Below, piece after piece: positions 1,247 through 12,865 of a stretch of DNA of 42,946 nucleotides. The notes under the pieces were generated by a model. The model was not told where the DNA came from and did no database searches. It saw only the letters and a program-made list of their open reading frames with translations. Made by a program: the position numbers and the translations under genes. Numbering within the stretch: the stretch's first letter is position 1; every line of letters starts with the position of its first letter. The stretch is from a virus: positions 1 through 42,946 of the IMG/VR virus record IMGVR_UViG_3300032006_000021; one strand, given 5' to 3'.

Positions 1247-1261
1247 ACGAGCGATTTTCGA

Positions 1262-1421
1262 CGCCCGAGGATGCCCTGTAACGGCATCGGACGAGCGACC
1301 TTGACTGTTGGGTCGCGGAAAATTACACACTGCACAGCCGCCGGACAGGGACTGGAACCCCCTCTGAGCCCCACTGGGTAATCAAATCTCCCCGGTGACG
1401 GCGAGTCCGGCGGCATTTTTT
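1262..1421 (+). ncRNA. Structured leader RNA ending in an intrinsic-terminator-like stem and U-tract
   Basis: The gap before the serine recombinase folds into several exact helices. Hairpin 1 is GATGCC/GGCATC (1270-1275/1283-1288). Hairpin 2 is GCGACC/GGTCGC (1295-1300/1311-1316). A 10-bp perfect closing stem, GCCGCCGGAC/GTCCGGCGGC (1337-1346/1405-1414), is followed by A and six T (1416-1421). Inside it AGGG/CCCT (1347-1350/1360-1363) and CACTGGG/CCCGGTG with one G-U pair (1372-1378/1391-1397) would make a three-way junction. The shape resembles a riboswitch or attenuator, but no known class was recognised. The recombinase ATG is 13 bases downstream. Confidence 0.5.
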
Positions 1422-1433
1422 GGATGAGCGAGC

Positions 1434-2138
1434 ATGACAAAGCGAGCGATCCTCTACGCCCGATTCAGCCCCCGCAAAAACGCAGACGAGTGCGATAGCG
1501 TTGACCGACAGTTGACGGCACTCCACGAGTATTGCGACGAGAAGGGCATCGAAGTGATGGCCGAGTTCAGCGACGAAGCGCTCTCCGGTGCCGACTACGA
1601 TCGGCCTGGGTTGTGGGACGCGGTCGCAGCATTGAAACGCGGCTGGATTTTGTTGTGCCGCGATTATCAGCGCCTGGCTCGCGACACGACGCTGGCTATG
1701 GTGATCGAGCAGAAGATCAAGGCTCGCGGCTGCAGCCTCATGTCGATGGAAAACGGCGACCTGGTCGACCGGCACGAAGATCCGTCGATGAAGATGATGC
1801 GAACTATTATGCACGCTTTTGCGGAGTTCGATCGCGCCGTTCGCAACGCCAGGACCCGGGCCGGTATGCTCCGCAACCAGCGCAACGGGCGACGACAATC
1901 GGCTGTAGTCCCTTACGGTTGGCGGAGCGATCCCGACTCCGATTTGAACGAGTACGGGCGTCCCAGCGGCATGCTGCACGACGACGCGGAGCAGCGAGCG
2001 ATCGAGCGTATGCGTGAGCTTCGCGAATCCGGCCAGTCGTACCGGCAGATCTGCGAGGTCTTGACCACCGAAGGCCACCCGCCACGAGGTGGCGGATGGC
2101 ACCCGGGATCGGTTCAGCGGATTCTCAAGCGGCGTTGA
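1434..2138 (+). CDS. Serine site-specific recombinase (resolvase/invertase family)
   Basis: The N-terminal resolvase domain (about 1-145) opens with ILYARFSP, Ser12 being the expected nucleophile, then SVDRQL. RDYQRLARD carries the conserved arginines and HAFAEFDRAVRNARTRAGM the family's connecting helix. Residues 155-234 (PYGW, GQSYRQICEVL, GGGWHPGSVQRIL) match only the first part of the 'Recombinase' domain. There is no zinc ribbon or coiled coil. At 234 aa it is far shorter than large serine integrases. It could resolve multimers, invert DNA or come from a transposon; no target site was identified. It follows a structured RNA with a U-tract and overlaps the 3' end of the convergent tyrosine integrase by 14 bp. 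Confidence 0.9.
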   Translation: MTKRAILYARFSPRKNADECDSVDRQLTALHEYCDEKGIEVMAEFSDEALSGADYDRPGLWDAVAALKRGWILLCRDYQRLARDTTLAMVIEQKIKARGCSLMSMENGDLVDRHEDPSMKMMRTIMHAFAEFDRAVRNARTRAGMLRNQRNGRRQSAVVPYGWRSDPDSDLNEYGRPSGMLHDDAEQRAIERMRELRESGQSYRQICEVLTTEGHPPRGGGWHPGSVQRILKRR

Positions 2139-3450
2139 GTTCGTCCAAACTTTCGACGACTCGCCGCAGTTCGTCTTTGGTCAACTTGGCGTAATTCGTC
2201 GTCATCGTGATCGACTTGTGGCCCAGCAACGCCTTCGCGTCCTGCAGACGCCCCATTGCCCGCAGCGCCGTGGCAATCCCGTGACGCAATTGGCCAGGCG
2301 ACCAGCGCTTGAGCTTTTCACCGCTGGCCTCTGCTTTTTGAAAAGCGTAGGCGACGGCTTTGCCGTATGAATTCAGGCTGTAGGACGGATTGATTGTCCG
2401 TTGCCACTTTTTGTAACGAGTGGCCTTTCGGATCTCCCGAGCTTTCAGTTCGCTCGGGTAGACGGGACACTTCCGATCTTCACGCCGACCGGCCTTCTCC
2501 ATCTGGTTCGCGCGCCACTCCATTGCGTAGATCGGGCGGAACACATGATCGCCCGGGTCACTGCACATCTCGACAAATGGGCGAATGGCATCTTGCGCCT
2601 GTGGACCCAATGCCTTGTACAGGTCGTATTCGCTTTCTTCGTCGTCGTCGTCGATGAAACGGTCGACCTTGTTCTCCCAAGGCTCATAGAACCAACACGC
2701 ATCATCGGACATGTCGAGTTCACCGAGCGTGATTTCGCACACCTCGCTGGGACGCATGCCGCCCCAGTACTGGACCGTCACCATTGCCGCGATGACTGGC
2801 GACATGAAGGGCAGGATCGGAGTCACCTGGTCCCAAGTGACTGGTATCTTTCGTTTCGCTTCGAGAATCGGCGGGCCGCTCTTGCGCTTGTTTCGCTTTT
2901 CTTTCTTCACCGGCCCGACATCAAGAAAGTCGTGGTGCAACTTTCGACTAATCAGTTCGTTGACGTGGCACCACTTCATCCAGGCACGCACCTCGCCGCA
3001 GATCTTGTTTATCCGATTTCGAGTCCGACGTTCCTTGATCAGTGCCTTCTGCAGGCGCTTGTACGCCGCTGTGCCGAACTCCGACCAGAAGATGTCCCCA
3101 ACGTGTCGCAGGACATGGTCGACGACGAGGCGTTTGTTCTTCGCCTCGTTCTTCGTGTGCTCTTCCCGCATCTCAGCGAGATAGCGCTCGCCGAGCTCCC
3201 GCAACGTCAGTTCGTCGGTGATGTCGGGGCTCAGACCGGCGGCTGCGTGCCAACCGGTTGTGTTCGTCGCCTGGCGAACCTTGTTGGCAACGGACGCCTG
3301 AATCCATTCGGCTTTCCAGATGGCATACCGTATCTCGGCTTGCTCTTGATTGTTGCCAAAATACTCCGATGTCTCGTGACCGTTCCTTTCCCAGCGAGCA
3401 CGATACTGACCCAGGGCCTTGTCGAATTTTAGCTCGGGAACCTTACGCAT
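2125..3450 (-). CDS. int: Tyrosine recombinase / phage integrase
   Basis: A 441-aa integrase expected to recombine attP with a host tRNA-Asn gene. A basic N-terminal arm-binding part and a SAM-like core-binding region (about 80-185) precede the catalytic domain. Visible active-site residues are Arg233 (GGMRPSE), Arg389-His390 (GQLRHG), His411 (LLGHKS) and Tyr420 (TTNYAK). The first His of the usual HxxR box is Gly386, a tolerated but less common change. The ATG at 3450 has AAAGGAG 8 bases upstream. A tRNA half-gene and repeat array lie directly behind it, the normal int-attP arrangement. A dyad over the putative promoter suggests repression. Confidence 0.95.
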   Translation of the reverse strand: MRKVPELKFDKALGQYRARWERNGHETSEYFGNNQEQAEIRYAIWKAEWIQASVANKVRQATNTTGWHAAAGLSPDITDELTLRELGERYLAEMREEHTKNEAKNKRLVVDHVLRHVGDIFWSEFGTAAYKRLQKALIKERRTRNRINKICGEVRAWMKWCHVNELISRKLHHDFLDVGPVKKEKRNKRKSGPPILEAKRKIPVTWDQVTPILPFMSPVIAAMVTVQYWGGMRPSEVCEITLGELDMSDDACWFYEPWENKVDRFIDDDDEESEYDLYKALGPQAQDAIRPFVEMCSDPGDHVFRPIYAMEWRANQMEKAGRREDRKCPVYPSELKAREIRKATRYKKWQRTINPSYSLNSYGKAVAYAFQKAEASGEKLKRWSPGQLRHGIATALRAMGRLQDAKALLGHKSITMTTNYAKLTKDELRRVVESLDELNAA

Positions 3451-3460
3451 TACACATAAC

Positions 3461-3512
3461 TCCTTTGGTATACTTGGTTGAACAGTATACCGTAACGGTT
3501 ATGTGTATATAA
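3461..3512 (-). promoter_or_regulatory. Integrase promoter/operator region with two dyads
   Basis: Read leftward, a TATACT -10 box (3484-3489) has a poor -35 (TTATAT, 3507-3512) at 17 bp. A perfect inverted repeat GGTATAC-N11-GTATACC (3467-3473/3485-3491) covers the -10 and the start-point region. The palindrome ACCGTAACGGT (3489-3499) abuts it and recurs, as the equivalent ACCGTTACGGT, at 35057-35067. A weak -35 and two overlapping dyads suggest tight regulation; the protein is unknown. Confidence 0.55.
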
Positions 3513-3524
3513 GTGTTTTGGGAG

Positions 3525-3567
3525 AGCGGTTAACAGCCGCTCGCTCTACCGATTGAGCTATCGGGGA
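3525..3567 (-). other. attP: attP: 5' half of a tRNA-Asn(GUU) gene
   Basis: The minus strand reads as the 5' half of tRNA-Asn. It has an acceptor strand TCCCCGAT, a D arm closed by GCTC/GAGC, and an anticodon stem AGCGG/CCGCT around loop CTGTTAA with anticodon GTT (3534-3532). The match ends at the anticodon stem. No variable loop, T arm or 3' acceptor strand follows; the sequence runs into the integrase control region. This position next to int is typical of an attP identity block. Unusually the 5' rather than the 3' part of the tRNA is carried, so integration would give the restored tRNA a phage-derived upstream region. Confidence 0.8.
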
Positions 3568-3576
3568 AAACGCAGT

Positions 3577-3603
3577 CTAAGTGCTACCTTGTACAGTACT
3601 TAG
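3577..3603. repeat. Inverted repeat beside attP
   Basis: CTAAGT (3577-3582) is repeated inverted as ACTTAG (3598-3603) across 15 bases, 10 bp beyond the end of the tRNA half. It could be a recombination directionality factor or regulator site. Confidence 0.45.
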
Positions 3604-3650
3604 GTCGACTCCGCAATCCATCATACACTCACATACACGTCAAAAAATCC

Positions 3651-3694
3651 GGCTAGTATCCGGCTAGTATCCGGCTAGTATCCGGCTAGTATCC
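3651..3694. repeat. Four tandem 11-bp repeats, candidate arm-type sites
   Basis: GGCTAGTATCC is repeated exactly four times (3651, 3662, 3673, 3684). The 11-bp period places copies on one face of the helix, about 85-125 bp from the tRNA half. That suits integrase arm binding or Xis binding. No gene lies here. Confidence 0.8.
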
Positions 3695-3750
3695 GCCCTA
3701 ACCTATCGGCAAACGGCCCGCGAAAGTCCAATTCCCGGGCCCAGAAACGA

Positions 3751-4011
3751 CTACTTCTTCTTCCACTTCGCCTGTACGACGGCCATTTCGACCTTCGCCT
3801 GGTAGGTCGTCAGCAGGTCGTTGGCGCGGTCGAATTTCGTCACTGAATCGACGCGGATCTCGTCCAGACCCAGGTCCGTCACCTGATCGACGATCGCTTT
3901 GAGCGCCGCCGCGTGTTTCTCCATGATCTCGATTTTTTCTTCGAGATCTGGGATCGTGATCGTTCCCCACCGCAACTGGTTGGGGATTGAGCCTCCGCGT
4001 GCCTTCGCCAT
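3751..4011 (-). CDS. Small coiled-coil hypothetical protein, 86 aa
   Basis: No family recognised. The protein is basic at both ends (MAKARGG, QAKWKKK) with a central helical part rich in Glu/Lys/Leu (PDLEEKIEIMEKHAAAL) that could form a coiled coil. It lies on the integrase strand, beyond attP and its repeats, and divergent from the early operon. An excisionase or DNA-binding accessory role is possible from position only; no helix-turn-helix is evident. TAGGAT lies upstream of the ATG at 4011. Confidence 0.55.
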   Translation of the reverse strand: MAKARGGSIPNQLRWGTITIPDLEEKIEIMEKHAAALKAIVDQVTDLGLDEIRVDSVTKFDRANDLLTTYQAKVEMAVVQAKWKKK

Positions 4012-4147
4012 TTTGAAATCCTATTCACAGTGGGGCATCTTGCCCGACAAACGTGCAGAGAAAACCGATATCCGATTTCCTGACTCTACTTTTACAGACT
4101 CGTGAACATCTTCACAACTAATCATATCGGATTTTGCCAAAAACTTC

Positions 4148-4188
4148 TTGATTCCGTTTGTGTAACCGTTGATATGTCTGAAACGGTT
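4148..4188 (+). promoter_or_regulatory. Putative early-operon promoter with AACCGTT/AACGGTT operator
   Basis: TTGATT (4148-4153) and GATATG (4171-4176) are separated by 17 bp and point at the gene starting at 4222. AACCGTT (4164-4170) sits against the -10, and its inverse AACGGTT lies at 4182-4188. The same sequence forms the ACCGTWACGGT palindromes at the integrase and capsid promoters, so a common regulator is plausible. Confidence 0.5.
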
Positions 4189-4221
4189 ATGTAGTTTCAC
4201 TCTCCACACAAGGAGGGTGAG

Positions 4222-4494
4222 ATGCACACCGACGAACAACTGCCGACCTGTTTGACCTGCCCCCGCGTGGGCGTGAGACGAGGACTCTGCCACCGATGCT
4301 ATCAAGCCTGCTGCACGCAGGTGAGGCGTGGCAATTTGACTTGGGATGAGGCCGAGGCCGCTGGCCTGGCTCGACCGGCGCGAAAGCGTGGACCCTGGCT
4401 CGACAAGTTCCGCGAGGTGATTCCGGCCAAGTCCCGCCCGCCGCAAGATGTGGCGAGACCGGCGGAGCCGGGGGCGGGCATCTCAGCCGAGTAA
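4222..4494 (+). CDS. Small cysteine-rich protein at head of early operon, 90 aa
   Basis: Function unknown. C10, C13, C23 and C26 (CLTC, CHRC), followed by a further Cys pair, suggest a zinc-binding N-terminal half. The C-terminal half is basic and proline-rich. The start has a strong AAGGAGGG binding site. As the first gene after the putative early promoter it could be a regulator, but no DNA-binding fold can be named. CsrA follows after 11 bases. Confidence 0.6.
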   Translation: MHTDEQLPTCLTCPRVGVRRGLCHRCYQACCTQVRRGNLTWDEAEAAGLARPARKRGPWLDKFREVIPAKSRPPQDVARPAEPGAGISAE

Positions 4495-4505
4495 GGAGGC
4501 GAACC

Positions 4506-4691
4506 ATGCTGGCACTGGGTTTGCGTGAGGGAGAACGTGTTGTGCTGCTGCTGCCGGATGACCGGCAGATCGATGTCGTCGTCGGTCGCTGCACCAACGG
4601 CAAAACGAAACTGGCCATTGAAGCTCCGCAAGATATCGAAATTTTGCGAGAGACACTGTTAGACCCGAAACGAGTGAGGATGACTTCATGA
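4506..4691 (+). CDS. csrA: CsrA/RsmA-family RNA-binding translational regulator
   Basis: This 61-aa protein follows the CsrA pattern throughout. It has a start MLALGLREGERV (family MLVLxRKxGExI), then DDRQIDVVV, a turn with NGKTKLAIEAP (family GNxVRLGIxAP), and DIEILRETLL, where the Arg after the last strand corresponds to the RNA-binding Arg of CsrA. CsrA dimers bind GGA motifs in mRNA leaders and change translation or stability. Here it could regulate phage or host messages; AAGGAGG leaders in this operon are possible targets. AAGGAGG lies 6 bases before the ATG and the stop overlaps the next start (ATGA). Confidence 0.85.
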   Translation: MLALGLREGERVVLLLPDDRQIDVVVGRCTNGKTKLAIEAPQDIEILRETLLDPKRVRMTS

Positions 4692-5464
4692 GTGTGCTTG
4701 AAAAAATCACGACGGAGGTCGCCAGTCGGCCATCGGCCATGTTCATTATGGGACCACCGGGTATCGGCAAGAGTACGTTGGCCGGAAACATCCCGGGCAT
4801 CGTGGTTCAGCCGTTTGGCCGCGAGGATACCTGGAGTCTCTTGAAACAGGCTGGCGCGGTTCCCGCCGACCTGCCGGTCCTGCCACGAGCGACGAAGTGG
4901 CTCGATCTGATGATGAATCTCAACGCCCTGGCGAGCGAAGAGCACGCATACAAGGGCGTTGCGATCGACACTGCGACCTGTGCCGAATCGCTTTGCCACG
5001 AGCACGTGACCGACAGCCAGTTCGGCGGATCCTGGGATTCGTTCATGGCGTATCACAAGGGGTACGAAATCGCAGCCAATTCCGATTGGGTCGATCTTCT
5101 CGACAAGCTCGATGCCTGTCGTGACCGGGGCATGAGCGTCGTCCTTCTGGGACACACCCGCGTCGCCCCCTTCAAAAACCCAGAGGGCGAGGACTACGAC
5201 CGGTTCCAGCCGGATCTGCACAAGAAGACCGCAGCCGCTCTCACTCGATGGGCCGACGCGGTGTTGTTTGCCAACTACTACACCGAAGTGGAAGACGGCA
5301 AAGGCAAAGGCGGCAAGAGTCGCGTGCTGTACACCGAGTACAGCCCCGCCTTCGATGCCAAGAACCGGTTGGGACTTCCGCCCGTGCTGGACATGGGCAG
5401 CAACGGCACCGAAGCCTGGTCGAATCTTGTGGGAGCAATCAAGGAGGCACGATCAAATGGCTAA
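4688..5464 (+). CDS. Phage AAA/RecA-like ATPase (AAA_24, Sak4-like)
   Basis: A 258-aa P-loop protein with Walker A GPPGIGKST (22-30) and a Walker B-like strand ending GVAIDTAT (Asp94). It lacks other domains. Length and motifs fit the phage nucleotide-binding AAA_24 group, whose members include Sak4-type recombination ATPases. These commonly sit beside a gene for a single-strand-binding protein, as here (5668-6198). The likely role is annealing or loading of single-stranded DNA during phage replication. The start overlaps the csrA stop, and the stop overlaps the next gene. Confidence 0.85.
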   Translation: MSVLEKITTEVASRPSAMFIMGPPGIGKSTLAGNIPGIVVQPFGREDTWSLLKQAGAVPADLPVLPRATKWLDLMMNLNALASEEHAYKGVAIDTATCAESLCHEHVTDSQFGGSWDSFMAYHKGYEIAANSDWVDLLDKLDACRDRGMSVVLLGHTRVAPFKNPEGEDYDRFQPDLHKKTAAALTRWADAVLFANYYTEVEDGKGKGGKSRVLYTEYSPAFDAKNRLGLPPVLDMGSNGTEAWSNLVGAIKEARSNG

Positions 5465-11701: not shown

Positions 11702-12865
11702 ATGAAAAACACAACCGGAACGGTCTTCCAATGGTACGTTGAGCGCAACGGAGACCCGCAAACCAGGCGTTCGTTTACTTCGGAATCGCTCGCCCAGGAG
11801 TACGCGAGCATTTACGACCGCATCTCCGATGGTGACACGACGACTCGGATCTACCTTGCCCCGACGATCGAGATGGTTGAGATCGCAAAAGAGGTGGGCG
11901 AAGAACACTCGCTGAAAGGCGTCTACGCGGTCGTCGAGGAATCGGTTAGCAAGCACAAACCCAAGAAAGCCAACGGACGACCTTGGTTTCCGACAGTCGT
12001 CGTTTCTCTGCTTCTGGTCGCCTGCGCGGCTTTGGGTTTCGGGGTGACCCCTTCGAGGCCGACAAAAACACCGCCTTCCCAAACGGTCAAGTGCCCAATT
12101 TCGGGCATCGATCTTGTGTTGGTGCCATCAGGAACCGTCACGATGGGATCGTCTGAGGCGGATCGAAATTACGTTCTGAACAACGTCGACTTGCAGCGAT
12201 GGAACAAACTGCGAGTGCAGTCGGAATTGCAACGGCTGGCTGACGTACCCCGGTTCTATCTTGCGACGACCCCGGTGACGATCCGGCAGTTTCGACAATT
12301 CGTGACTGCGACAGGTCACATCACCACCGGTGAAAGCGACGATGAGGGCGGCTGGGGACGTGTCAACAACGCCTGGGTGAGGTCAAACGATTACACGTTC
12401 GACAATTTGGGCGAAGACATCGAGATTGATGATCGCATGCCCGCCATGAACATCAGCTACCGGGACGCTCTCGAATACTGCTTATGGTTGTCCAACGAAA
12501 CCGGTCGGACGTATCGTCTGCCCACCGAGGCGGAATGGGAACACGCCGCTCGCGGTGGAACAGACACTCGATGGCACACCGGCAACGACCTGCTCAACGC
12601 CACCAATTGCGGCTGGACGGCGGCTTCAAGTGGTGGAATCCCGCACCCCGTTGCGTCTTTCGAACCCAACGAGTTCGGCCTGTACGACATGATCGGTGGG
12701 GTCTGGGAATGGTGCGGTGATCATTTCTCCGACGACCGACCGTGGAGGGTTCTCAAGGGCGGTTCCTTTCGGGCAACCCCCTGGCTCGCTCGCTCCGCTT
12801 CTCGCAGCGGACTGAGAGAGGACTACGTCGGAGCCAACGGTTTTCGCGTGGTGCTGGAACCCTAA
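11702..12865 (+). CDS. Membrane-anchored formylglycine-generating-enzyme-fold (SUMF1) protein
   Basis: The N-terminal 90 residues are unrecognised and cytosolic in style. A hydrophobic helix (about 95-114) and a Thr/Pro linker follow. Residues 135-387 form an FGE-sulfatase domain: VLVPSGTVTMGS, PVTIRQFRQFVTATG, RLPTEAEWEHAARGG, NEFGLYDMIGGVWEWC, VLKGGSF and GFRVV. True FGE enzymes carry two cysteines near the C-terminus; here RSASRSGLRED occupies that place without Cys, so enzyme activity is doubtful. A binding role is more likely, as for related C-type-lectin-fold proteins. It stands alone and may be a lysogenic-conversion gene. G8 precedes the ATG. Confidence 0.85.
   Translation: MKNTTGTVFQWYVERNGDPQTRRSFTSESLAQEYASIYDRISDGDTTTRIYLAPTIEMVEIAKEVGEEHSLKGVYAVVEESVSKHKPKKANGRPWFPTVVVSLLLVACAALGFGVTPSRPTKTPPSQTVKCPISGIDLVLVPSGTVTMGSSEADRNYVLNNVDLQRWNKLRVQSELQRLADVPRFYLATTPVTIRQFRQFVTATGHITTGESDDEGGWGRVNNAWVRSNDYTFDNLGEDIEIDDRMPAMNISYRDALEYCLWLSNETGRTYRLPTEAEWEHAARGGTDTRWHTGNDLLNATNCGWTAASSGGIPHPVASFEPNEFGLYDMIGGVWEWCGDHFSDDRPWRVLKGGSFRATPWLARSASRSGLREDYVGANGFRVVLEP

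Follow-up and report, generated by a model that had tools for sequence, protein, structure and literature searches.

The probable attachment region and its neighbours

The window, i.e., the whole stretch of DNA analysed here, comprises the 42,946 bases of a virus record, which encodes an integrase, a terminase large subunit and a major head protein. There are no end repeats in the record, so it may not be a complete free phage. The features around the integrase gene (int) are collected in Table 1. The start of int lies 75 bp beyond a 43-base block that reads in the same direction and corresponds to the 5' half of a tRNA; int does not overlap the block (3525-3567), which places the putative attachment site outside the gene. 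On the other side of the block, 183 bp away from it, is the conserved small gene gp3751, for which no match to a known family was found.

Read on the minus strand from 3567 to 3525, the block is TCCCCGATAGCTCAATCGGTAGAGCGAGCGGCTGTTAACCGCT and matches nt 1-43 of the planctomycete tRNA-Asn(GUU), comprising the acceptor 5' strand, nt 8-9, the D arm, nt 26 and the whole anticodon arm. All 43 of the 43 bases are intact. Right past the anticodon stem the window diverges from the tRNA and reads CTCCCAAAACACTTATATAC toward int; the sequence past nt 43 is not tRNA and the 3' half is absent. Across the 42.9 kb record, which may be incomplete, ARAGORN called no full tRNA gene. When the block was relaxed to a 29-base pattern, the window matched it once and 100 shuffled windows did not match it at all, so the block is not due to chance. 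Exact copies of the 42-base core are present in 93 stretches of the GTDB genome set, mainly from Planctomycetota with a few from Chloroflexota, and all genome copies, unless cut by a contig end, run on as AGGT... to form a complete tRNA-Asn. The original prediction of a minus-strand tRNA-Asn(GUU) 5' half that breaks off beside int, with matching tRNA-Asn genes in bacterial genomes, is thereby borne out.

Table 1. Features of the attachment region and of the Paludisphaera soli element.
Feature	Position	Strand	Basis or remark
int, tyrosine recombinase, 441 aa	2125..3450	-	Pfam PF00589 E 6e-13; phrog_1 integrase E 8.5e-31
int leader, 24-nt inverted repeat around the ribosome-binding site	3451..3507	-	sequence; fold
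Probable attP identity block, tRNA-Asn(GUU) nt 1-43	3525..3567	-	exact copies of the 42-base core in 93 genome stretches
Anticodon arm AGCGG-CTGTTAA-CCGCT; presumed core sites flanking a 7-bp overlap (3530-3536)	3525..3541	-	sequence; crossover inferred
Sequence directly before the tRNA half, resembles that of L095 (13/18)	3568..3585	-	no promoter recognised
About 4.5 direct repeats (11 bp) of ATCCGGCTAGT, presumed arm-type integrase sites	3647..3695	.	counterparts in L097, L098
Conserved small gene gp3751, 86 aa, upstream of the tRNA half	3751..4011	-	relatives at the same place in L097, L098
P. soli tRNA-Val fragment and intact tRNA-Val	L144, L450; G012 C114:85150 and C115:110299		

The direct repeats between the block and gp3751 have counterparts at the same place in the viral relatives L097 and L098, with a similar period and another sequence. 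Repeats that change together with the integrase are as expected of arm-type sites, and we infer such a role for them.

Several other features of the record are worth describing. A serine resolvase-type recombinase (window 1434-2138), also present in L097, is arranged tail to tail with int and overlaps its end. The sequence AACGGTTATGT precedes int and recurs before the rightward genes (window 3494-3504 and 4163-4192), possibly as a shared operator; at the latter place TAACCGTT and AACGGTTA make up an inverted repeat. Farther away, a phage gene at window 11702-12865 has a sulfatase-modifying-factor (FGE) domain.

Integrase relatives in Planctomycetota

We sampled the integrase family as 37 homologues in Planctomycetota genomes. 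A complete tRNA was found near int in 27 of the 37, and in 26 of these 27 it is upstream of int and on the int strand; the remaining homologues mostly have a tRNA 3' part there, and one has a 5' part. For two cases the DNA beyond the element was retrieved and the displaced fragment detected, i.e., nt 31-75 about 36 kb away in L126 and nt 33-75 in L145. With starting points at nt 31 and 33, both fragments are identical to the tRNA from the anticodon loop to its 3' end. The window has the anticodon-arm core and the int direction of the family, but here it is the stretch from the anticodon stem to the 5' end that is identical to the tRNA.

That the 3' half is the one usually carried by attP, as had been claimed beforehand, agrees both with these relatives, nearly all of which are of the 3' mode, and with the Islander collection, in which 3' fragments are found in 3760 and 5' fragments in 159 of 3919 islands (PMC4383910). 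A prophage with a relative of the AAA gene of the window (L316) has the conventional tRNA-int order as well; other prophages with relatives of the AAA gene mostly have no integrase match near that gene. Viral contigs hold at least one clear case of a 3'-only tRNA-Asn among the 80 matches listed, too few for a ratio. Close relatives of the integrase were found neither in the viral contigs nor in the phage collection.

Integration model and simulated junctions

We consider the block very probably to be the attP of a temperate phage that inserts in the host tRNA-Asn(GUU) gene and rebuilds it with the phage-borne 5' half; the host probably belongs to the Planctomycetota. The integrase would most likely bind both halves of the anticodon stem, and the crossover would fall in the 7-bp anticodon loop (3530-3536), because the fragments of the relatives and the exact edge of the block both point there. 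Integration would then give two junctions, one consisting of the host promoter, the host 5' half and int, and the other of phage DNA, the phage 5' half and the host 3' half, i.e., an intact tRNA-Asn. The restored tRNA would be separated from its own promoter and would have to be transcribed from phage DNA.

When the phage 5' half was joined in simulation to the host 3' half, a tRNA-Asn was called for 86 of 86 genome copies, and for none of the 86 when the reciprocal junction (host 5' half and int side) was simulated. The tRNA calling on simulated lysogen junctions thus supports the original prediction, and two of its further claims are given by the geometry: the restored tRNA would have phage DNA on its upstream side, and the displaced host tRNA promoter would be directed toward int. 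A lysogen of this phage, searched for as a 5' half not followed by A, was found neither in 398 Planctomycetia genomes nor in the viral contigs; the matches to this pattern were all complete tRNA-Asn genes with another base at nt 44 or copies cut by a contig end. Please note that four observations count against the attP model: no lysogen was found, no promoter is recognisable, a tRNA piece is lacking at this place in the viral relatives L096-L098, and the tRNA of the phage contig L095 is reversed.

The lack of a tRNA piece between int and the small gene in L096-L098, which nonetheless presumably integrate, would be explained if the tRNA half were a captured, decaying piece of a host tRNA and the working attP core were another short sequence nearby. 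We regard this as unlikely, given that the 43 bases are without a single change and that the edge of the block is exactly at the anticodon stem, where members of the family recombine. It is also conceivable that the site is a junction of an integrated prophage (attL or attR) or was created by chimeric assembly, and the missing end repeats of the record would fit with this. The comparison of window 1247-5373 with L097 makes it very unlikely: the gene order resolvase, int, site, gp3751, gp4222 and AAA is kept, and the flanks of int and the att site have 78% and 76% nucleotide identity, whereas the integrases are merely 34% alike. As both flanks are conserved in L097, and in order, the site is internal to the phage genome and hence an attP, not an attL or attR. 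Seemingly, int and the att site form an exchangeable module, and the integration module looks swapped relative to L097.

In tRNA-dependent lysogeny, a whole tRNA-Asn would be located on a part of the phage outside the record and no rebuilding at the junction would be needed. The record may be incomplete and L095 does have a nearly whole tRNA-Asn, but the 42.9 kb at hand contain no tRNA, and the known cases share just ~10 bp with attB (PMC10865867), as opposed to 43 bp that rebuild a tRNA here, so that such an arrangement is highly improbable.

Transcription of the restored tRNA

Under the attP model the restored tRNA would need transcription from the phage side, and a phage-supplied promoter had been proposed in 3568-3750. 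This proposal found no support: no consensus promoter was recognised in 3568-3750 upstream of the tRNA half; close to the tRNA start, the top-scoring sigma-70-like site does not outdo those of shuffles (p 0.77), and in 3568-4222 the top score is below the shuffle median. The tRNA might be transcribed from a local promoter of unrecognised type or by read-through from gp3751 (3751-4011); as there is no terminator-like site in 3400-3800, including the stretch between gp3751 and the tRNA half, read-through from gp3751 is possible. The same read-through would also transcribe the 43 nt as a 5' tRNA-half RNA with a role of its own, a speculative part of the original prediction that we find hardly credible, since neither a promoter or terminator for it nor an Rfam match was found in the window and its location beside int is accounted for by attP.

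The 18 bases directly before the tRNA half agree with those of L095 at 13 of 18 positions, as compared with a mean of 5.7 (sd 2.0) for 92 tRNA-Asn upstream sequences. We also considered that the window carries a host promoter region and rejected it, the best match to a genome tRNA-Asn upstream sequence being 11/18.

On the other side of the block, the int leader has a fold of -23.1 kcal/mol (z -4.7), which could dampen the translation of read-through transcripts. Strong leader folds are also common in conventional members of the integrase family, and the int ribosome-binding site of the window is just about half paired in the ensemble; the leader fold is therefore not tied to the 5' mode, and the hairpin was discarded as a special device against read-through from the host tRNA gene.

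Two relatives suggest that a promoter is able to travel with the element. The first is the phage contig L095, in which tRNA-Asn nt 1-71, i.e., a nearly whole tRNA, sits at the same place in the opposite direction. It lies between two pairs of TTGTGTCA (L095:229-487; copies at 229, 252, 457 and 480), which are the only four in 13.1 kb, and upstream of the tRNA is TTGCAG-17-TAAACT (p 0.0045 against shuffles of L095 itself). The second is Paludisphaera soli, in which an integrase of the family (L144) is preceded by a 5' fragment, nt 1-46 of tRNA-Val(TAC). A second contig has an intact tRNA-Val with the same 46 nt and with 98 of the 100 bases upstream of them, and past this repeat there are genes frequent in phages, namely those for a DNA methylase, a PAPS reductase domain and DUF5131. 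The gene that precedes the P. soli fragment has an uninterrupted tRNA-Val(TAC) immediately after it in 11 relatives. On the simplest reading, the P. soli element integrated in the 5' mode and appears to have brought ~100 bp of tRNA promoter DNA with it; the two ends are on separate contigs, and no synteny with the relatives retrieved is seen in the far flank.

From these cases we consider it possible, though at somewhat less than even chances, that within one planctomycete integrase family elements changed over from 3'-half to 5'-half restoration, with the anticodon-loop core and the int direction retained, and that the 5' kind carries its own tRNA promoter in the attachment site, as the P. 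soli element appears to do.

Significance and relation to known systems

A resident prophage would, in the 5' mode, govern how a host tRNA gene is transcribed, with the host tRNA promoter driving into int; if this is true, decay of the prophage at that end would affect the tRNA too. With 3'- and 5'-restoring members in one integrase family that use the same core, it becomes testable how an element changes mode. In annotation, the ends of such elements would be misplaced by prophage finders that look for a 3' fragment.

Among the closest arrangements are the 5'-tDNA islands in Islander, in which the 5' half likewise belongs to the element, so that the host 5' fragment ends up displaced and an intact tRNA is found at the opposite end (PMC4383910); anticodon-centred sites are common among them (PMC4383910). 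Those islands are integrated and were detected by their two ends, whereas the present case is known from the phage form alone. The archaeal plasmid pTN3 has 41 bp in common with the 5' half of a tRNA-Leu, and upon rebuilding this tRNA is separated from its promoter (PMC5495485); a similar situation has seldom been encountered in bacteria according to a review (PMC8371274). The present virus is bacterial, and it resembles pTN3 in the ~41 bp of tRNA 5' half and in the separation of the rebuilt tRNA from its own promoter (PMC5495485, PMC8371274); it differs in that the att site of pTN3 is inside int, which is split by integration, while here the site is 75 bp upstream of an intact int. The planctomycete integrases at complete tRNA genes (L126, L145 and others) are of the same family and share the tRNA on the int strand upstream and the anticodon-loop core, but with them it is the 3' half that is restored and the host promoter is kept. 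In the tRNA-dependent lysogeny of actinobacteriophages, tRNA function in the lysogen also needs transcription from phage DNA (PMC10865867); there, a separate whole phage tRNA is needed and the junction rebuilds none (PMC10865867). The present phage is thus very probably an instance of a rare mode that is already documented, and would add one to the 5'-restoring elements. Since the 5' arrangement is rare but known, it is less surprising than the original prediction implied; less to be expected is that the mode seems to have changed within a single family of integrases.
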